Below are positions 7,024-53,421 of a stretch of 64,000 nucleotides of DNA, in pieces. A program made the position numbers and the translations under genes. This DNA comes from Dyadobacter chenhuakuii (GTDB lineage: Bacteria > Bacteroidota > Bacteroidia > Cytophagales > Spirosomataceae): contig NZ_CP098805.1 of the NCBI RefSeq assembly GCF_023821985.2, forward strand, positions 2,604,001 through 2,668,000, written 5' to 3'. How positions within the stretch are numbered: position 1 is the stretch's first letter; each line of letters opens with the position of its first letter. The notes beneath the pieces were generated by a model. The model did not search any database. It was not told the origin of the DNA and was given only the letters and a program-made list of their open reading frames with translations.

Positions 7024-8277
7024 ATGACCGATCGTAAAACACGGCTGGCTATCATTCTCATTACTTCGTTATTTTTTCTTTGGGGCTTTGCCCTTAATCT
7101 CAACCCCATCCTCATTCCGCATTTAAAGAAAGCATGTCAGCTAAGCGACTTTCAATCAGCACTTATTGATTCGGCTTCCTATATCGCGTACTTTCTGATT
7201 GCATTGCCTGCCGGGCTTTTTATGAAAAGGTTCGGTTACAAGGCCGGGATCACCCTGGGGCTGCTTTTGTTTGCATTTGGCACATTCCTGTTTTATCCCG
7301 CTGCCGAAATGAGGCATTTTGGCTTCTTCCTGTTTGCCTTGTTCGTGATTGCCAGCGGTTTAACATTGCTGGAAACGGCTGCCAACCCTTATATAACCGT
7401 TCTTGGAGACAGTGAGTCGGCTACGCAGCGACTTAATTTTGCACAGTCATTCAATGGTTTGGCTGCTTTTTTAGCGCCGTTAATGGGCGGGACTTTTATC
7501 CTCTCGGGTAAAACACTATCTGAGCAGGAAGAGCAATCGATGTCTGCGGACCAGCTGAACAGTTACCTCAATGCAGAAGCCTCTTCGGTTCAAATACCCT
7601 TTCTGGTTATAGGAGTTGTGGTTTTGTTGGTTGCGGTAATGATCTGGCGCACGCAATTGCCTGAAATCAAGGAGGAAACGGACGACAGCGGCAAGATCAG
7701 CGGCTCCATATGGTCAGAAAAAAACCTGATTTTAGGCGTTATAGCACAGTTTTTCTACGTTGGTGCGCAAGTTTGTATCAGCAGTTTTTTTATTCGTTTT
7801 TCGGACAAAGTCGCAGGCATTGATGAAAAAACGGCTGCATATGTGCTGTCAGGAGCATTTTTAAGCTTTATGATCGGCCGGTTTATCGGCACATATTTAA
7901 TGCGATTTGTTGCTCCGCCGCGCTTACTCGCACTTTACAGTATTATTAATGTTGCGTTGCTTATCCTGGCCGTCCTTACCGAAGGCATGGTTGCGGTGTA
8001 TGCATTGGTAGGCGTTCAGTTTTTCATGTCCATTATGTTCCCGACAATTTTTGCGCTCAGTATCCGCGGACTGGGAGAAAAGACCAAAATCGGGTCTTCA
8101 CTGGTTATTATGTCTATCGTTGGCGGAGCGATTTTCCCGGTTATTATGGGTCAGGTTTCTGATATTTCGTCTATACAAACGGCCTATATCGTTCCGGCGG
8201 TCTGCTTCCTGGTTGTTCTTTATTTTGCGATCAAAAACAATTCAATTAAACATGTGACGCTGGGTGCTTCCCATTAA
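7024..8277 (+). CDS. fucP: L-fucose:proton symporter-type MFS transporter
   Basis: This 417-residue protein has about twelve membrane segments and the FucP family pattern. Signs are the N-terminal ITSLFFLWGFALNLNPILIP, the FMKRFGYKAGI loop after helix 3 and TLLETAANPYITVLGD in the middle. The family imports L-fucose, and some members glucose, galactose or N-acetylglucosamine, with protons across the inner membrane. Two oxidoreductase genes follow at once on the same strand (33-bp and 38-bp gaps). This makes uptake plus oxidation of L-fucose or a related sugar likely. Substrate is inferred from family and context. Confidence 0.85.
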   Translation: MTDRKTRLAIILITSLFFLWGFALNLNPILIPHLKKACQLSDFQSALIDSASYIAYFLIALPAGLFMKRFGYKAGITLGLLLFAFGTFLFYPAAEMRHFGFFLFALFVIASGLTLLETAANPYITVLGDSESATQRLNFAQSFNGLAAFLAPLMGGTFILSGKTLSEQEEQSMSADQLNSYLNAEASSVQIPFLVIGVVVLLVAVMIWRTQLPEIKEETDDSGKISGSIWSEKNLILGVIAQFFYVGAQVCISSFFIRFSDKVAGIDEKTAAYVLSGAFLSFMIGRFIGTYLMRFVAPPRLLALYSIINVALLILAVLTEGMVAVYALVGVQFFMSIMFPTIFALSIRGLGEKTKIGSSLVIMSIVGGAIFPVIMGQVSDISSIQTAYIVPAVCFLVVLYFAIKNNSIKHVTLGASH

Positions 8278-45769: not shown

Positions 45770-46180
45770 TTCAATTTCTATGTTGGTAATCCTGCCCTGC
45801 AACCTGCATTTGTACAAAATGCAGAGCTGAGCTATACTTATAAGCAACAATACAGTATCACAGCTTATTACACCTCAATCCAGGATGTTTCACCAACATC
45901 AATGTGCAGGACAATCAGACGAAGCTTTATTATGGAACGCATGCAAACCTGGGTTTAAGCGCGAATTCAGGTGTCCGTTTATCAGCAGCATTTCAGCCGG
46001 GCAGCTGGTGGGATATCAATGTGATGGGCGGCGCTTACAGGCTGCGGGAAAAATCAGCTTATCTGTCCAGCGCATTCGACTATCACCTGTTTTCCTACGA
46101 TGCGAACTTGACGCAGTACTTCACCATTCATACGAAGGCAGCAGTAAAGGCTGAGATCAGCGGGACTTACAACGGGCCCG
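45770..46180 (+). pseudogene. Remnant of a TonB-type outer-membrane beta-barrel receptor
   Basis: Two frames together encode a C-terminal piece of an outer-membrane beta-barrel protein: SPFNFYVGNPALQPAFVQNAEL and SITAYYTSIQDV in one frame, then FTNINVQDNQTKLYYG and GSWWDINVMGGAYRLREK in the next. The switch is at about 45885-45892, where GATGTTTCACC probably lost one T. The plug domain, the barrel N-terminus and the last strands are missing; similarity stops near 46180 after EISGTYNGPG. It is a decayed fragment, not an expressed gene. No intact parent gene is in the window. Confidence 0.72.
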
Positions 46181-46440
46181 GCATTCTCTTGATCATTTTA
46201 CTTAAACGAAATGCCGCCAGCAGGAAGTAAAACGCGACAAAAGCGGCATAACCAGCTAGAGTATTCATACCTATACCCGGCGTATGTGCTTGTAAATAGA
46301 TGGAGACGCCCGCCAGCATTTGCTGAATCTGTTTTCAATCTTTTCAGGCTGCTTCTCCAAATTGATACGACATTACCACCATAGCTGCTGACATACTGTT
46401 GTCATTTCCGCATTTTAATTTTGAGAAAACATTCCATCCT

Positions 46441-46821
46441 ATGAAATTTGCATCCATCCGAATTATAACCGCAGACATCCAACCTCTAATTGCATTCTAT
46501 GAACAAATTACGGGTTTATCCTTTATTCAGCATACAGCGGATTTTGCGGAATTACACACCTCATCAATCGTACTGGCGATCGGCAGCACCCGGACTCTGG
46601 ATCTTTTTGGAGGAAGCCATCTGGCCGTCCCGGCATCCAATCAATCGATCATTTTGGAGTTTCTTGTGGACGATGTAGACGCAGAATATCACAGGCTGGC
46701 AGACCTCCTTGGCGATGACATTGTTCAAACACCAACAACAATGCCTTGGGAAAACCGCTCTATGTTGTTTCGCGATCCAGACGGAAACCTCGTAAACTTT
46801 TTTACGCCAGTCAACCGGTAA
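46441..46821 (+). CDS. VOC-family protein (glyoxalase/bleomycin-resistance fold)
   Basis: This 126-residue cytoplasmic protein has the VOC fold: FASIRIITADIQPLIAFYEQITG at the start, then IILEFLVDDVDAEYHRLADL in the second half. MLFRDPDGNLVNFFTP ends it. The usual C-terminal Glu ligand is Asn (NLVNFF), so metal binding may be lost and it may be a binding protein. The start at 46441 fits the domain start; an upstream ATG at 46399 only adds a low-complexity tail. It follows the receptor remnant and precedes convergent genes. Confidence 0.84.
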   Translation: MKFASIRIITADIQPLIAFYEQITGLSFIQHTADFAELHTSSIVLAIGSTRTLDLFGGSHLAVPASNQSIILEFLVDDVDAEYHRLADLLGDDIVQTPTTMPWENRSMLFRDPDGNLVNFFTPVNR

Positions 46822-46920
46822 GCAAATGGAAGCGCTCATTGAATGTTAGTACGCAGATATTGATTTGAAGATATAAACGGGGAAAACCGTGTACCTAATT
46901 TGTTCAGTTGGGGATGCTGG

Positions 46921-47756
46921 CTACTTAATCGTATATGATGTAGTATCAAACTCACCCAGCCTGAAATACCCCAATACTTCTTCATTAGTATCATTGACAT
47001 TAGAACAGTTTCCTTTTAACTGTACAGGGATAGTTGGAAAAGGCCCGCCTTCATCACTTCCGGATTGCTGAATCAATATGTTTAAATAGTCGTAATATCT
47101 TCGTGAAATACCATAAACATTAATTCCTACGGTTACTCCGGCAACATTGTTTTCGTTATCATTCTCAATATAATTTTCGTTGCCATCTGAAAATTTATCG
47201 CTGATAACTGAAAGAGATGGCAGTGGTAAATTAGACGGAGTAAATTCGCCTAAATAATAATTTGAAACAGCAACGCGGTCGTTAAAAAATACCTGAAGGA
47301 CAATTTCTGTGTCACCATCAGAACCTTCAATGGCTTGCTCAACCCGATTAATAACAGGTGCTGCAATCAAGGTTTCTGTTGCTGTGTAAGAGTTGCCATC
47401 GGAAAGGATTTTCAGCGTGTACGATGCGTTTATTTCCGGAATAAAGTCGGTTGCAGTGTAACTACCATTATTCTGGTCGGCAAACACAACTACAGACCCG
47501 TCGTTTTCTTTGGTTACTGTTACTGAGGCACCCGTAACAGGGACATCCGGATTCTTATCAAAAAAGCAGTTGATTTTCTTAGATTAATGGTTTGTGTTTT
47601 TCCCGTTGTACCTTTTTGCCACTTAATAGACGCATCAACCACCAATCGTGCGCCGCCGTTTGGGACTTTAACATCTATGACATCGGTACACGAACTTAAT
47701 AACCCTAAAAGGAAAAAGAGTGTCCCTAATTTGCCGTATATATTCATGTTTTTCAT
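46921..47756 (-). pseudogene. DUF4249 lipoprotein gene with a frameshift
   Basis: The N-terminal part (47756-47520) has a lipoprotein signal ending LLSSCTDVIDVKVPNGGARLV. The C-terminal part (from about 47560 down to 46921) continues in another frame with DKNPDVPVTGASVTVTKEND and ends SYTIK. Together they form a DUF4249 protein. The break is at the A6 run at about 47561-47566 (GCTTTTTTGAT on the minus strand); one extra T would restore AFFDKNP. DUF4249 proteins follow TonB receptors in Bacteroidota and are probably surface lipoproteins that assist them. It starts 4 bases after the TonB receptor gene. It is a true decay, a phase-variable run or a sequencing error. Confidence 0.8.
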
Positions 47757-47760
47757 TATT

Positions 47761-50169
47761 TCAAAAATTAAAATTGTATGTTACTGAAGGGACGATACCA
47801 AATATGGAAGTACGAGTGGCTTCTGTTACGCCTGTCTTATGATTTTGACCAAAAGAAATTGAGGCTGCGTTGCTTCGGTTATATGCGTTGTATATGCCAA
47901 ATACCCATTCGCCTTGCCATTTTCTATCTTTATTTTTTTGCGGTGTTAAGGTTGCAGAAAGGTCTAGTCTGTGATAGGCAGGCAATCGGTCTGCATTCCT
48001 TTCGGAATAAGTCGCGACGGATAATCCGTTGTATACAAATTGTCCGTTAGGATAGGTAACGGGTCGCCCGGTCTGGAATACCATATTGGCCCCAAATCGC
48101 CATTTTTCGTTAAGTTTATAACTTCCGGTAAATTCAAAGTCGTGGGTTCTGTCCCAGTTAGAGTTATACCATTTCCCGTTGTTAATGCCTGCTCCGCCAG
48201 CTGCTCCTCCGGGTGTGCGCTGTTGCGATTTTGACAATGTGTACGCCACCCAGCCTGTAAAAGTGCCTTGGTTCTTCCGCAATAGAAACTCTAAGCCATA
48301 AGCCCGGGCTTCACCAGTCAAAATTTCGGTTTCAATGGTGTTTTGAGCTATAAGTTCGGCACCGTTAATATAATCTATCCTGTTGTCGATGGTTTTGTAA
48401 TAGGCTTCGGCTTCGATCGAAAACATATTCTCGTTTAAATTTCTGAAATAGCCAATGGCATATTGGTCTGCAATTTGCGGTTCAATAAACTTTCCGCTAG
48501 GCGTCCAGACATCTAATGGCGTAGCTGATGTGGTATTAGAAATCAGATGCAGATATTGAGCAATTCGGTTATAACTTGCTTTAAAAGAAGAGTTCTCGTT
48601 AAGCTGATATGAAAGTGCAAACCGAGGCTCCAAATTACTGAATGTAGCTATGCTTTTCCCCTTGCCGTAATTGCTACTAGAAATGGGTTCGGCACGCTCA
48701 TAAATGCCTAATTCCTTGTTATAAATTACTGGTAAGTTATTAGCGTAATTGTTTAATGTTTGCTTTCCTATTCGATTAAAGTAACTAAGACGCAAGCCAT
48801 ATTCAGCGGTAAGTCTTTCAGAAATCTTGTGTTCTAAACTTGCATAAATTCCAGCTTCGAAAGCAAATTTATCGTCTAATTTCTCCGGATTAACACCCGA
48901 ATCTGCATTTAGGGGGTTGAGTCTGCCTGGATTAAAGTTGTAATAAATGCCATTTACTCCAAAATCAAATTTTAATTTATCGCTTGCATAATACCCCAAG
49001 TCATAGCGCATGTTATAATTGCTTATATCTGAGGTCCAATCAATTCCCTCAATAGGAATTTCCAGGTTATAGTTATATCGACTGTATATTAAGGATACAT
49101 TGGAGAATAACTTGTTATTGAAAATATGATTCCATCGCAAGTTTCCTGAGAGATTTCCGTACGAATTAGTGAACAGTCCTGCGAGGTTAAAGTCATCATT
49201 GCCTAAATAACCAGATAGATATAGTTTGTTCTTCTCATCGATTTCATAATTTGTTTTCAGGTTCAAATCGTAAAATCCGGCTCTGCTGCTCTCCTTGGCC
49301 AAGGCCAAGAATATATTCACATAAGAGGCTCGACCAGCAATCAGAAACGAACCTTTGTCCTTAAACATGGGCCCTTCCGCCGCCAAACGACTGGAAATAG
49401 CACCAATACCGCCAGTGAGTTCAAATTCTTTACTATTTCCATCTTTTTGCCGTATATCCAGTACCGAAGAAGCACGACCTCCAAAACGGGCAGGAATTCC
49501 TCCCTTATAAAGTTTAACATCCTTAATTGCATCAGCATTAAATATGGAGAAGAAACCAAATAAATGAGAGGCGTTGTAAATAATTGCTTCATCCAAAAGA
49601 ATCAGATTCTGGTCTTCTGCACCACCGCGTACATTGAAGCCCGATGCGCCTTCGCCGGCGTTGGTTACACCTGGCAGCAATTGAATGGACTTGATCAAGT
49701 CTACCTCACCCAAAACGACAGGTATCTGTTTGATATCCTTACTTGAGAGTCTTGTCACACTCATTTGCGGTGTCCCAATGTCTACTTGCATTGATTCCTC
49801 AGCTGTGATGACTACTTCATCTAATTGGGCGTTATCCCATTTGAGCTCAATGTTGAGCTTTTGATTTGATTTAAGGTCTATTGGCCTTTCAAACGTTGTA
49901 AATCCTAAATAAGAAATGGTTAAGGTATAATTACCTTCGGGTGCTGTGATAGAATAAAAACCATATTCATTGGTTACGCTTCCAATGGAAGTACCTTTCA
50001 AAAGGACAGTCGCCCCCAGAAGTGTTTCACCGTTGCCAACATCCTTGACTATACCGCTAATTGTGTATTTTTTTTGTGCAAAAAGGAATACTGGACACAA
50101 CATTATGATCACGAATAAGGCGTACCTTTTCCTTGACCCGAAGGGCTTGAACTGACTTGTTTTTTTCAT
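47761..50169 (-). CDS. TonB-dependent receptor with N-terminal carboxypeptidase-regulatory-like domain
   Basis: This 802-residue outer-membrane receptor has a signal peptide (RYALFVIIMLCPVFLFAQ) and a CarboxypepD-reg-like domain (about 35-120, GATVLLKGTSIGSVTNEYGF). The plug domain (about 125-245) contains ASGFNVRGGAEDQNLILLDE and RFGGRASSVLDIRQKDG. A 22-strand barrel follows and ends TSIFGIVPSVTYNFNF. It is shorter than SusC and not paired with a SusD; its partner is the DUF4249 gene 4 bases downstream. The substrate, such as a siderophore or peptide, is unknown. It is divergent from an ECF sigma factor and a likely anti-sigma gene, a layout typical of receptors with cell-surface signalling. 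It is AT-rich compared with core genes. Confidence 0.9.
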   Translation of the reverse strand: MKKTSQFKPFGSRKRYALFVIIMLCPVFLFAQKKYTISGIVKDVGNGETLLGATVLLKGTSIGSVTNEYGFYSITAPEGNYTLTISYLGFTTFERPIDLKSNQKLNIELKWDNAQLDEVVITAEESMQVDIGTPQMSVTRLSSKDIKQIPVVLGEVDLIKSIQLLPGVTNAGEGASGFNVRGGAEDQNLILLDEAIIYNASHLFGFFSIFNADAIKDVKLYKGGIPARFGGRASSVLDIRQKDGNSKEFELTGGIGAISSRLAAEGPMFKDKGSFLIAGRASYVNIFLALAKESSRAGFYDLNLKTNYEIDEKNKLYLSGYLGNDDFNLAGLFTNSYGNLSGNLRWNHIFNNKLFSNVSLIYSRYNYNLEIPIEGIDWTSDISNYNMRYDLGYYASDKLKFDFGVNGIYYNFNPGRLNPLNADSGVNPEKLDDKFAFEAGIYASLEHKISERLTAEYGLRLSYFNRIGKQTLNNYANNLPVIYNKELGIYERAEPISSSNYGKGKSIATFSNLEPRFALSYQLNENSSFKASYNRIAQYLHLISNTTSATPLDVWTPSGKFIEPQIADQYAIGYFRNLNENMFSIEAEAYYKTIDNRIDYINGAELIAQNTIETEILTGEARAYGLEFLLRKNQGTFTGWVAYTLSKSQQRTPGGAAGGAGINNGKWYNSNWDRTHDFEFTGSYKLNEKWRFGANMVFQTGRPVTYPNGQFVYNGLSVATYSERNADRLPAYHRLDLSATLTPQKNKDRKWQGEWVFGIYNAYNRSNAASISFGQNHKTGVTEATRTSIFGIVPSVTYNFNF

Positions 50170-50460
50170 AATATTTTAAAAAATTTATTTATGTGCCCTT
50201 CAAAATCTTCCATTAATGGTTATGCGACGGAACCTTTGTGATGCGAATAGGTAGGCACACTGTAACCAACGGAAGAAACTATACGCAACGTAGAGACGAA
50301 ACAGGGATACATTGTTTTCAAAAGCCATTACGGGTTGTCGGAAAAAATAGTGGGGTGAATGCTGAAAAATTTTTCGTCTCAAAAAAAATATAGAATCACA
50401 CCCCACCTTTGCATGTTACCTTCCGTAAGGGGAAGAAGATGATGTTAAATCTAATTACCA
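50170..50460. other. Divergent region between the TonB receptor and the ECF sigma factor
   Basis: This stretch of 291 bases has no supported gene. Before the sigma gene lies CACCTTTG (50404-50411), one mismatch from a -7 element. An ATGATG with a strong GGAAGAAG ribosome site starts an 10-codon frame at 50439-50471 that overlaps the sigma start. It presumably holds the promoters of both genes. Confidence 0.4.
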
Positions 50461-51069
50461 TTGTTATTTAGAAGGAAAGCTCTCTTTGATGAAAAGGATC
50501 TGTCAAGCATTTTGGAAGCCTGTAAGGGTGGCAATGCTCAGGCACAACGATGTCTGATCCGGCAATTTGCAGGATATGCCAAAAGCATTTCGCTTCGATA
50601 TGCGGCTACCTTTGAGGAAGCGGAGGAGATCGTCAACGACTGCTTTTTAAAAGTGTTTAATAATTTACATAGCTATGATAAAGCGCAACCTTTCAAAGCC
50701 TGGTTTCGAACAATTGCTATTAATACGGCCATTGACCATTACCGGAAGAATCTCAAATGGCAGGAACAGCTAAGTCTGGATAATCTGGAAGTTGCGGACT
50801 GGAGTGATGACATTTTAAGTGAAATATCTGCCCAGGAAATATTAATAATGGTTCAACGCCTCCCACCGGCTTATAGAATGGTTTTCACACTGTTTGTAAT
50901 TGATGGATACTCACATAAAGAAATAGCTAACATGCTTGGTATCCAGGAAGGAACATCAAAATCTAACCTGAGGGATGCCAGACGAAAATTGCAAACCATG
51001 ATAAAACTAAACTTTCCGCATTTGTATCAACTTTATAACTGGCCTAATAAGGGATTTAATGAAAACTGA
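50461..51069 (+). CDS. ECF RNA polymerase sigma factor
   Basis: This 202-residue protein is an ECF-type sigma factor. Region 2 has LRYAATFEEAEEIVNDCFLKVFNNLHSYD and AWFRTIAINTAIDHYRK, the -10 binding part. Region 4 has RLPPAYRMVFTLFVIDGYSHKEIANMLGIQEGTSKSNLRDARRKL. The start is unclear: a TTG at 50461 is the first start codon after the in-frame stop at 50452, and the good ribosome site GGAAGAAG belongs to a 10-codon frame at 50439-50471 in another frame. The C-terminal end overlaps the next gene by 11 bases, so the two are co-translated. It likely directs transcription of the divergent receptor genes. Confidence 0.9.
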   Translation: MLFRRKALFDEKDLSSILEACKGGNAQAQRCLIRQFAGYAKSISLRYAATFEEAEEIVNDCFLKVFNNLHSYDKAQPFKAWFRTIAINTAIDHYRKNLKWQEQLSLDNLEVADWSDDILSEISAQEILIMVQRLPPAYRMVFTLFVIDGYSHKEIANMLGIQEGTSKSNLRDARRKLQTMIKLNFPHLYQLYNWPNKGFNEN

Positions 51070-52456
51070 GCAATTTGACGACGAATTCCGGAAAAAGTTA
51101 TTGGGTCTGGATCCAAGTGATGAAGAAGTCGATCGGATATATAATTATGTCTCTTCGAATGGTAATATGACGCCCCGTTTTTCATGGATCAAAATCCTGA
51201 TTTACGGGTTGGCTGCTTCGTTATTGGTCGGCTCTCTATCCTTCAATTACGTTCAAAATCTAACTAATAAAAAACTCTTATCCTCCCTGGATTCTTTAAA
51301 AAGCAGAATCACTTCTATTGAACTAAATTCTGCTCAAAAAACAAGTCTACGCGTCGATACCATATACATTGACCGGTATATTGAAAAAACCATTGCAGCC
51401 CAAAATCATCAGGAGTTGCTTTACACCAGGCAGGGCCCTCATAATGAAATTCAGCAGCCAATTAATAATCCTCTTACGGATGAATCAGTACAGAATTTAA
51501 ACTTCCAACCAGCAGATTCCTCTGGCATGGTAATAGATAAAACCGATGGTACGGTTGGAAAATCCATTGCTCGGAATAATGCTTCCGGCACAGGATTAAA
51601 TACCTACAGATCAGATGATGCCGTTGTTGAGAAAGAATCTTCCGAAATAAAGGGCAATGACAATAATCCGGCTAACAAAGCACCGTATACAAATAATGAA
51701 AATTTCCTCAAAGCTGGTAAGACAATATTGAATAGCCGTATTGGCAACATTCATCTTTCATTTACGCATTTGAAACTACCGGTTTTAAAGACGCCGGAGA
51801 AATTACCTTTGTTTAGCAAAGACAAGCCTAAATATTACTCAGAATCAATGAAGTCGGTTCTTAAAAAGATGGATTATTATGTGGGTGGAAGCCTTGACGC
51901 GGGTAACAGGCAGGTGGCAGGCGCACTTCTCGGAGAGCTGCGGCTCACACCAAAATGGAGTTTTCAAACCGGTGCCCGGTGGGCAGAAATCACCGGCCAC
52001 AGTTACGACACCGCCGAGCAGTTTGGTCAAAAGACTGGTCAGGATTTTAGGGCTCTGTATGCGCCCTACGTAGCTCAAAATGTCGATTTGTTAAATATTG
52101 AACAAAATCATCAGCTCGTTCAAATCCCTTTAACAATTGCATATCATTACGAATTAAGTCCGAATTGGGCCCTGCGTTTCGGAATAGGAACTGATCTATC
52201 CATCTACGCCCTAAAAGACATTCATTTCAATTATAAGAAAGACAGTCAGTCCTTTGATAAAGGAGAATACAATGCGAAATTATCAATAAAGCCTATTAAC
52301 GATATTACAATAAACCTGGGTCTGGAGCGTCGCTCGAACAAGTTCCTGTTTAGGGTAAGTCCTTACGTTAGTCCTCAATTACGTAAAACAGAATTTTCCA
52401 ACAAAGGTCTTTTGTGGGGCGGCAGGGTGCAGGCTTTGTATAAATTAAATAGATGA
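51059..52456 (+). CDS. Putative anti-sigma-like membrane protein with C-terminal beta-barrel-like domain
   Basis: This 465-residue protein has a short cytoplasmic N-terminus (1-42, MKTEQFDDEFRKKLLGLDPS), one membrane segment (about 46-63) and a coiled stretch with repeated Leu/Ser. A low-complexity linker (about 110-240) follows, then a C-terminal region (about 265-465) of alternating strands such as YYVGGSLDAGNRQVAGALL, WSFQTGARWAEITG and NWALRFGIGTDLSIYAL, like an outer-membrane beta-barrel. It overlaps the ECF sigma gene by 11 bases, the typical place of an anti-sigma factor. No classical ZAS zinc motif is present. How one chain spans the inner membrane and also forms a barrel is unclear; it may join both membranes. 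Confidence 0.7.
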   Translation: MKTEQFDDEFRKKLLGLDPSDEEVDRIYNYVSSNGNMTPRFSWIKILIYGLAASLLVGSLSFNYVQNLTNKKLLSSLDSLKSRITSIELNSAQKTSLRVDTIYIDRYIEKTIAAQNHQELLYTRQGPHNEIQQPINNPLTDESVQNLNFQPADSSGMVIDKTDGTVGKSIARNNASGTGLNTYRSDDAVVEKESSEIKGNDNNPANKAPYTNNENFLKAGKTILNSRIGNIHLSFTHLKLPVLKTPEKLPLFSKDKPKYYSESMKSVLKKMDYYVGGSLDAGNRQVAGALLGELRLTPKWSFQTGARWAEITGHSYDTAEQFGQKTGQDFRALYAPYVAQNVDLLNIEQNHQLVQIPLTIAYHYELSPNWALRFGIGTDLSIYALKDIHFNYKKDSQSFDKGEYNAKLSIKPINDITINLGLERRSNKFLFRVSPYVSPQLRKTEFSNKGLLWGGRVQALYKLNR

Positions 52457-52506
52457 CTTTTAATGACGTCGGCAGTTGTTTCACAAAACAATCCCTCCAA
52501 TATGCT

Positions 52507-53421
52507 TTAATTAAAAGAACGCCTGAAATCCAAGGGCGATACACTGGTTTTGAGCTTGAAAAGTTTGCTAAAAGACTGGGGATGTTCGAACCCTAGTTCA
52601 TACGCTATTTCGCTTATCGAAGCATCGCTCGTAGATAGTTGTTCCTTAGCCTTTTCAATCAGATGGTTGTGAATGTGTTGTTGTGCATTTTGCCCGGTTA
52701 TTGATCGCAGCATGTCACTTAAATAACTCGGACTGACGTTTAACTGCTCAGACAGGAACTGGACAGTTGGAAGCCCCTGCTTTTTGTCTGGTGGTGACTG
52801 AAAGTAGGTATGCAAAATGTCTTCTACCTTTTGAAGCAGATCGCTACTTACCGCCTTACGGGTGATGAATTGCCTGCTGTAGAACCGGTTGGCATAATTC
52901 AGCAGCAATTCGATCTGAGAAATGACAACGTCCTGGCTGAAATTATCAATTCTGTCTTTTAATTCTTCTTCAATATTTTCGAAAACAGAAATGATTGTCG
53001 TTTTTTCCTTTTCCGATAAGTGCAGCGCTTCATGGATAGAATAGGAAAAAAATCCGTACGCTTTGATCTTCCTGGCGAGTTCGTAACCCAGTAAAAAATC
53101 GGGATGGAAAAGTAAAGTATAACCGGACTGATCACTGAGTGGTGCGTGGCCTCCCGTGATTTGATTTGGCGAAACAAAAAACATTCCCCCTTCGTCAAAA
53201 TCGTAGTAATGCTGCCCATATTTAAACTTCCCCCGAAAGTTTGTCTTATAGGATATCTTATAAAAATTTAGGATATGGGGACTGGGAAGTCTTTCCAGCG
53301 GAACGGTCCCATCAGCATTGTTGATTAAACTTACCAACGGGTGCATAGGTGCCGGAATGTCCAGCGCCTTATGCAGCCTTGATAACGAAATGAATCTATG
53401 GTTAGACATTTCATCCTTCAT
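52507..53421 (-). CDS. AraC-family transcriptional regulator
   Basis: This 304-residue regulator has an N-terminal cupin-like domain (GKFKYGQHYYDFDEGGMFFVSP) and a C-terminal AraC domain with TVQFLSEQLNVSPSYLSDMLRS and DASISEIAYELGFEHPQSFSKLFKLKT. It resembles the regulator at 40588 along the full length, including EALHLSEKEK. The start at 53421 or, with a better ribosome site (AAGGA four bases before), 53409. It follows the hydrolase gene by 13 bases on the same strand and is probably transcribed with it. The signal is unknown. Confidence 0.92.
   Translation of the reverse strand: MKDEMSNHRFISLSRLHKALDIPAPMHPLVSLINNADGTVPLERLPSPHILNFYKISYKTNFRGKFKYGQHYYDFDEGGMFFVSPNQITGGHAPLSDQSGYTLLFHPDFLLGYELARKIKAYGFFSYSIHEALHLSEKEKTTIISVFENIEEELKDRIDNFSQDVVISQIELLLNYANRFYSRQFITRKAVSSDLLQKVEDILHTYFQSPPDKKQGLPTVQFLSEQLNVSPSYLSDMLRSITGQNAQQHIHNHLIEKAKEQLSTSDASISEIAYELGFEHPQSFSKLFKLKTSVSPLDFRRSFN

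Follow-up and report, generated by a model that had tools for sequence, protein, structure and literature searches.

The founding paper of the Dma family reportedly appeared in PNAS in 2024. In excerpts of a J Bacteriol 2026 paper (PMC13088901), Dma proteins are described as having an N-terminal anti-sigma part, one transmembrane helix, a long disordered tether and a C-terminal barrel. The family is there called restricted to Bacteroidota, and ECF21 sigma genes adjoin its members. The same excerpts report that the hypervesiculation caused by deletion of dma2 requires das2, that Dma3 bears a sigma domain fused in front, and that the overall role of two-membrane anti-sigma factors is poorly understood. 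For Reo/EcfO of Bacteroides fragilis and Phocaeicola vulgatus, excerpts of a Gut Microbes 2026 paper (PMC13114119) propose outer-membrane stress sensing and describe the P. vulgatus Reo as spanning all compartments. An outer-membrane barrel is likewise proposed in sigma control in the SigX-CfrX-CmpX-OprF system of Pseudomonas aeruginosa (excerpts of PMC8999054). According to excerpts of PMC7406223, only 6% of Bacteroidetes ECF sigma factors are associated with a class I anti-sigma domain.

We found a protein of the same general layout in the window, that is, the whole stretch of 64,000 nucleotides analysed, which belongs to a genome of 6.08 Mb; those of its close relatives that carry a name are Dyadobacter. 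This protein is very probably a Dma/Reo-type anti-sigma factor, a sigma holder that would bridge both membranes and whose sigma factor would use two back-to-back promoters. The gene pair and the parts of the protein are as follows.

50461..51069, + strand: ECF sigma factor gene, 202 aa as listed, TTG start (Pfam Sigma70_r2, Sigma70_r4_2)
51059..52456, + strand: Dma-type anti-sigma protein dma, 465 aa, ATG start (ORF, AlphaFold model, fold comparison, relatives)
51059..51184, + strand: aa 1-42, proposed sigma-binding part (conservation)
51188..51244, + strand: aa 44-62, predicted hydrophobic helix (hydropathy; modelled helix at low pLDDT)
51275..51367, + strand: aa 73-103, membrane-proximal stretch with L73, L80 and the DTxY box at aa 100-103 (invariant residues)
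51326..51856, + strand: aa 90-266, linker without predicted structure (pLDDT <50; fastest-changing region)
51872..52447, + strand: aa 272-463, predicted outer-membrane-type beta-barrel (model, fold comparison)

The original prediction, which was made from the sequence of the window, noted an 11-base overlap of the gene with an ECF sigma gene. The two ORFs do overlap in this way, and the upstream protein carries sigma70 regions 2 (E 1.1e-13) and 4 (E 2e-15) in Pfam. This sigma factor is 95-98% identical in close Dyadobacter loci, and its best NCBIfam matches are under the cut-offs, the general sigma70-ECF model excepted. The sole Pfam matches of the 465-aa protein are OMP_b-brl_2 (E 0.0016) and OMP_b-brl (E 0.0067) at aa 286-424, both under the curated cut-offs. 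The N-terminus was also predicted to be anti-sigma-like. Gene order and a published family of the same layout speak for this, but the N-terminus has no Pfam or NCBIfam match and no curated anti-sigma domain, and none is among the families matched by the 35 A1 rows or the 10 A3 rows. Comparison with PHROGs gave no match, and a sequence search of solved structures with profile A2 gave none up to E 1. We claim Dma membership from the layout, and the 465-aa protein is well supported as a real Dma-type protein that is ordinary as a kind.

The original prediction proposed searching for the same domain order beside other ECF genes. A single-sequence search matched 37 of 59 genomes, comprising all 37 at genus level (own genome included) and none of the 22 from other families. 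A profile search of the order matched 18 of 194 genomes, among them 9 of the 11 listed same-family genomes outside the genus, and a broader profile matched 36 of 296 genomes in the phylum; these profile searches score few candidates per genome, and their misses are soft. Each of the 39 near loci has a sigma ORF upstream with the identical 11-base overlap, which places the pairing beyond chance; these loci encode 35 distinct proteins, and some are one gene fetched twice. The spacing varies at order level: the sigma ORF stops 71 bases before the start in L046-L048 and overlaps it by 4-14 bases in most others. All 27 phylum-level loci inspected have a sigma gene directly upstream as well, and in four of them (L087, L089, L093 and L094) the anti-sigma-like protein lacks a barrel. 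Between the near and the far set, the barrels can be aligned over 174 columns with a probability of 99.7, the far profile A3 having taken 10 of 21 barrel-bearing proteins.

An alignment of the intergenic region upstream of the sigma gene exposed two opposite copies of a promoter-like motif.

50400..50428, + strand: ACCCCAC-N17-CGTAA, facing sigma/dma (intergenic alignment, motif search)
50328..50356, - strand: second ACCCCAC-N17-CGTAA copy, facing the TonB receptor (intergenic alignment, motif search)

These are the only exact N17 copies in the genome, and 0.02 exact copies are expected in the window; the rarity is partly after the fact because the motif was first spotted by eye in this region. 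Searching the genome at spacings of 16-18 gave three exact matches, two of which are the pair, and none in a reversed control. The third, with spacing 18 (G000:C1:2833493), lies antisense in what by eye is a DNA ligase-like ORF and was taken as chance. When one mismatch was allowed, the genome gave 10 matches versus 34 in the reversed control, and we therefore used only the exact N17 pair. Scans of 46700-52700 revealed no excess of sigma-70-type promoters (14 versus 15.3 in shuffles) or of terminators (4 versus 5.2 in shuffles).

We searched 40 Dyadobacter genomes for the motif at spacings of 16-17, ten with this sigma factor and 30 without it. An exact match occurs at the locus in all ten genomes with the sigma factor, and the exact pair in eight of them. 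In G010 the sigma-side copy is ACCACAC...CGTAT; in G026 it ends in CGTAT and the opposite copy has spacing 16. The motif faces a fatty acid hydroxylase in G026. In G010 the first gene that it faces encodes a 276-aa protein with no Pfam match, and behind this come a fatty acid hydroxylase, a TonB receptor and DUF4249. The motif pair is absent from the 30 genomes without this sigma factor. These contain 17 scattered matches (16 of the 30 have none), and the ten genomes with it contain 13 further matches elsewhere; reversed controls gave 44 and 19, respectively, so scattered single matches carry no meaning.

Some extra copies sit within ~8 kb of the locus. Those found by motif search near the locus in other species are listed here.

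L276 5662 (- strand) and 5731 (+ strand): extra ACCCCAC...CGTA copies
L275 3614 (- strand) and 3676 (+ strand): extra ACCCCAC...CGTA copies
L274 5723 (- strand) and 7048 (+ strand): extra ACCCCAC...CGTA copies

These copies lie before a DUF5686 protein, an operon with a PMT_2 glycosyltransferase, and proteins that lack Pfam matches. Specifically, extra copies precede a ~395-aa protein without a Pfam match and then a PMT_2 glycosyltransferase in G017 and G010, the DUF5686 protein in G010, and two ~400-aa proteins without Pfam matches in G026. The copies in G017 and G026 are again paired with a CGTAT variant. By eye, the site and gene order in D. crusticola (L037) are as in G017. Judged from sequence, the gene content behind the motif copies would fit an envelope regulon.

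The motif could instead be the site of another regulator, or the sigma factor could act elsewhere, in which case the TonB receptor and DUF4249 would be mere neighbours. The after-the-fact discovery of the motif is in keeping with this explanation, as are the 17 scattered copies in genomes without the sigma factor, though these are fewer than the 44 of the control. However, the motif looks like an ECF promoter in its spacing and its CGTA box, and from genome to genome it goes with this sigma gene. Moreover, at a paralogous sigma factor of the same genome the CGTAA box recurs with another upstream box, again as a back-to-back pair and with only two copies in the genome. We thus consider another regulator, or action elsewhere, unlikely.

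If the pair is used by the sigma factor that the two-membrane protein would hold, its second copy would serve the divergent genes.

47761..50169, - strand: TonB-dependent receptor, 802 aa, predicted target (Pfam; orthologues)
46921..47756, - strand: DUF4249 gene, second predicted target, frameshifted in this assembly (Pfam DUF4249)

That these two genes are the targets had been proposed from their position, and the paired motif supports them as predicted targets. The Pfam match of the DUF4249 gene (E 5.9e-13) lies on the part 46921-47487, and a one-base shift occurs in a T run near 47563, where three aligned relatives are open. The frameshift may be a true mutation, a phase switch or an assembly error. 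Orthologues of the TonB receptor with at least 90% identity occur in 8 of 48 Dyadobacter genomes, all eight beside this sigma gene, and the next matches have at most 48% identity. The dma gene is visible in six of these eight loci, and in the other two the end of the locus cuts it off (for one of them it is shown by L007). The divergent receptor is present in all six named Dyadobacter loci, which are partly the same genomes. Up to E 1, the Pfam matches of the receptor are CarboxypepD_reg-type, Plug and barrel domains and weak matches to PEGA, DUF2490 and CooC_C. Elsewhere in the window, a short ORF (45904-46230, + strand) looks, from its translation, like part of an outer-membrane receptor.

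An AlphaFold model built on 35 aligned relatives has a mean pLDDT of 57.5 that is unevenly distributed. The N-terminus and helix have low block values (35-52), so the model does not establish their fold. Hydropathy peaks at aa 44-62, over 19 residues with a mean of 1.83. Lysine plus arginine is richer on the N-terminal side of the helix than on the other side in 27 of 66 proteins, equal in 17 and poorer in 22, and the topology is not settled by this count; among the 31 distant members, 24 have an N-in charge bias and three the reverse. Residues L73, L80, D100, T101 and Y103 are invariant in 35 rows. A DT[VI][YHW] sequence follows just past the helix in 45 of 66 relatives, and all 21 without it belong to the phylum-level set. 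The long linker that had been anticipated is borne out as unstructured, with pLDDT <50 at aa 90-266. From the helix end to the barrel start there are 170-281 residues in the 35 proteins, and the tether in 31 distant relatives spans roughly 130-365 residues.

The helix might also be a long signal peptide that is cleaved, a possibility raised in the original prediction. The barrel would then be an outer-membrane protein on its own, and any effect on the sigma factor would come from the N-terminal piece by itself. A signal-peptidase-like site is indeed present, in that the small-x-small triplet SLS closes the helix with its last residue at aa 62, and a split relative encodes its barrel separately, in a protein whose own N-terminal helix is probably a signal peptide. 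However, the triplet is not kept: by eye, relatives have SLTF or SLLY at this position, and a second paralogue has MAFMY. In addition, comparison of the window protein with seven close relatives gives identities of 93% for aa 1-42 and 89% for aa 67-110, so that the parts flanking the helix (itself at 85%) are as conserved as the barrel (87%), with the linker at 74%. In 24 rows of the second paralogue, the corresponding identities are 26% for the N-part, 30% for the helix, 31% for the next stretch, 10% for the linker and 22% for the barrel. The published relatives, too, are described as spanning both membranes in excerpts of PMC13088901 and PMC13114119. We therefore regard a cleaved signal peptide as very improbable and the helix as a probable anchor in a two-membrane protein.

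A structure prediction of the C-terminal ~200 residues, which had been read as a barrel, gave a barrel at aa 272-463 that is modelled confidently (block pLDDT 72-93). Near the top of its fold matches are the N-domain of OprF (Z 16.4, rmsd 2.4, 130 aligned), a designed barrel (Z 16.3), OmpA (Z 15.7, rmsd 2.8, 131 aligned) and NspA (Z 15.5). Nine strands are listed in the model; on our reading they could be eight barrel strands if 398-407 and 417-426 form one interrupted strand. That the domain is instead a barrel-like domain in the periplasm, making the protein an ordinary inner-membrane anti-sigma factor, would be in line with Pfam matches under the cut-offs and with the lack of a terminal aromatic residue in some relatives. 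Yet the best matches are outer-membrane barrels, with the soluble avidins lower (Z 10.8 and 9.5), and four relatives (L051-L054) end in an aromatic residue, e.g. ...YYQF, ...LYQF and ...FFQF, which fits a barrel end signal. We regard this alternative to an outer-membrane barrel as very improbable.

In FecR-FecI-FecA cell-surface signalling, an ECF sigma factor is governed by an event at the outer membrane and a TonB receptor gene lies nearby. We rejected signalling of the FecR type for this locus: among Pfam matches up to E 1, the window protein has no FecR domain and the neighbouring receptor no STN signalling domain.

From the computed layout, barrel fold, conserved sigma neighbour and paired motif, we infer how sigma binding, localisation, signal, cutting and promoter use could be connected in a two-membrane sigma holder. 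The first ~42 residues would keep the ECF sigma factor bound at the inner membrane, where the helix (aa 44-62) would be the anchor. About 200 unstructured residues would cross the periplasm, and the C-terminal barrel would sit in the outer membrane. When failed folding, a ligand or membrane damage disturbs the barrel, this might be relayed down the chain to the membrane-proximal DTxY stretch. The chain would then be cut near the inner membrane and the sigma factor freed. We propose this last step by analogy with other membrane-bound anti-sigma factors, and we see the chances of release by such cutting as evenly poised. The freed sigma factor would use the two back-to-back promoters, those of its own operon and of the TonB receptor-DUF4249 pair.

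The genome has at least three further loci with a sigma factor and a fused protein, namely L106, whose sequence links it to the window protein, L105 and L108. The fused proteins of L105 and L108 have sub-threshold OMP_b-brl_2 matches in Pfam, and that of L106 has none. A Rieske-domain protein (L105 497-1000, - strand) is found after the third fused sigma/anti-sigma pair of the genome.

A split form occurs at L107 (G000:C1:4797000-4801500), with a sigma gene, a 271-aa anti-sigma-like protein without a barrel and a separate 367-aa protein. The short anti-sigma-like protein carries the helix. The 367-aa protein has an N-terminal hydrophobic stretch and an OMP_b-brl_2 match above the cut-off, and it is modelled as an outer-membrane barrel (PagL Z 16.0, rmsd 3.0, 132 aligned; OmpA model 13.1). 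The split anti-sigma gene has matches in all 48 Dyadobacter genomes searched, and the three split genes are together in all 30 loci inspected (L117-L146). In one of these, L142, the sigma factor and the anti-sigma part are a single 479-aa ORF, which recalls the fused sigma domain reported for Dma3 in excerpts of PMC13088901. Gene orders similar to the split form are seen in the four phylum-level loci without a fused barrel. Among these, L094 alone has a Pfam barrel match in its separate ORF; the separate ORFs of L087, L089 and L093 have none, and a barrel was recognised there by eye (two of these ORFs are truncated at the end of the locus). In a tree of 58 sigma factors, from which L046 was omitted with only 29 residues recognised, 13 split rows and the fused L108 make up one supported group (100/99). 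The best tree has two changes between the fused and split forms, of which the starred branches force one, with the direction unset.

Locus L106 also contains a conserved RNA-like element.

L106 ~7737-7792, core G000:C1:5578740-5578761, + strand: GTTAGGGGTGAGTTGG, then a hairpin, then a T run, beside the paralogous sigma gene

Of 37 Dyadobacter genomes, 34 have exactly one copy of the element; none of 22 others has it. Its hairpin is 96% paired over 19 variants. Two-sided changes in the hairpin number 13, versus 5.4 in shuffles, and 7 of 13 pairs never vary; this count takes 19 of 25 variants, all of 57 bases, and leaves out six of other lengths, the window genome's own included. A search of Rfam with E up to 1 gave no match. 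With a loose pattern, a divergent TTTGCAACA...CGTAA copy is found upstream of the element in 19 of the 34 loci, and in eight of these it lies within 75-115 bases with no gene between. A crude filter found a lipoprotein-like ORF of 204-208 aa in between in 12 of the 34 loci. The element is a candidate sigma-dependent small RNA.

Tentatively, Dyadobacter might have a closed sensor-effector module with a single back-to-back promoter pair, made up of the two-membrane anti-sigma factor, the partner sigma factor and one divergent cassette for the outer membrane. The split form, in which anti-sigma part and barrel are separate, might then mean that the covalent bridge is one of two evolved ways to read the state of the outer membrane. 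The divergent product of the paralogous module could be a small RNA; alternatively, it could be the mRNA of a lipoprotein, carrying a conserved RNA tail. The value of the locus lies in its readable promoter pair and split relatives: two predicted promoters make a narrow, testable regulon in an environmental bacterium that is not from the gut, and the split form is a natural test of the need for a covalent tether. More broadly, two-membrane anti-sigma factors answer part of how Bacteroidetes ECF sigma factors are controlled.

Neither the split form nor the TonB-DUF4249 promoter pair was found in the literature surveyed on anti-sigma factors, barrels and DUF4249, and both may still be published. 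The architecture itself is already known from Dma and Reo of gut bacteria, and the analysis suggests that the new aspect here is the back-to-back motif pair, which indicates a regulon. We liken the window protein to the Bacteroides Dma proteins and to Reo by layout description and not by sequence. As far as the excerpts of their descriptions go, Dma1/Das1, Dma2/Das2 and Dma3 of Bacteroides thetaiotaomicron share with the window protein the four-part layout and the adjoining ECF sigma gene. They differ in their host group and in their targets, which are nigD/PULs there and the predicted TonB receptor and DUF4249 here. Reo/EcfO, as excerpted, shares the span of all compartments with our proposal, and the Reo regulon includes nigD genes. 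The OprF barrel of the SigX-CfrX-CmpX-OprF system is the best fold match here, which is a resemblance only; in the excerpts available for that system, the components are separate proteins and the anti-sigma factor is soluble, whereas the protein described here would join the sigma holder and the barrel in one chain.
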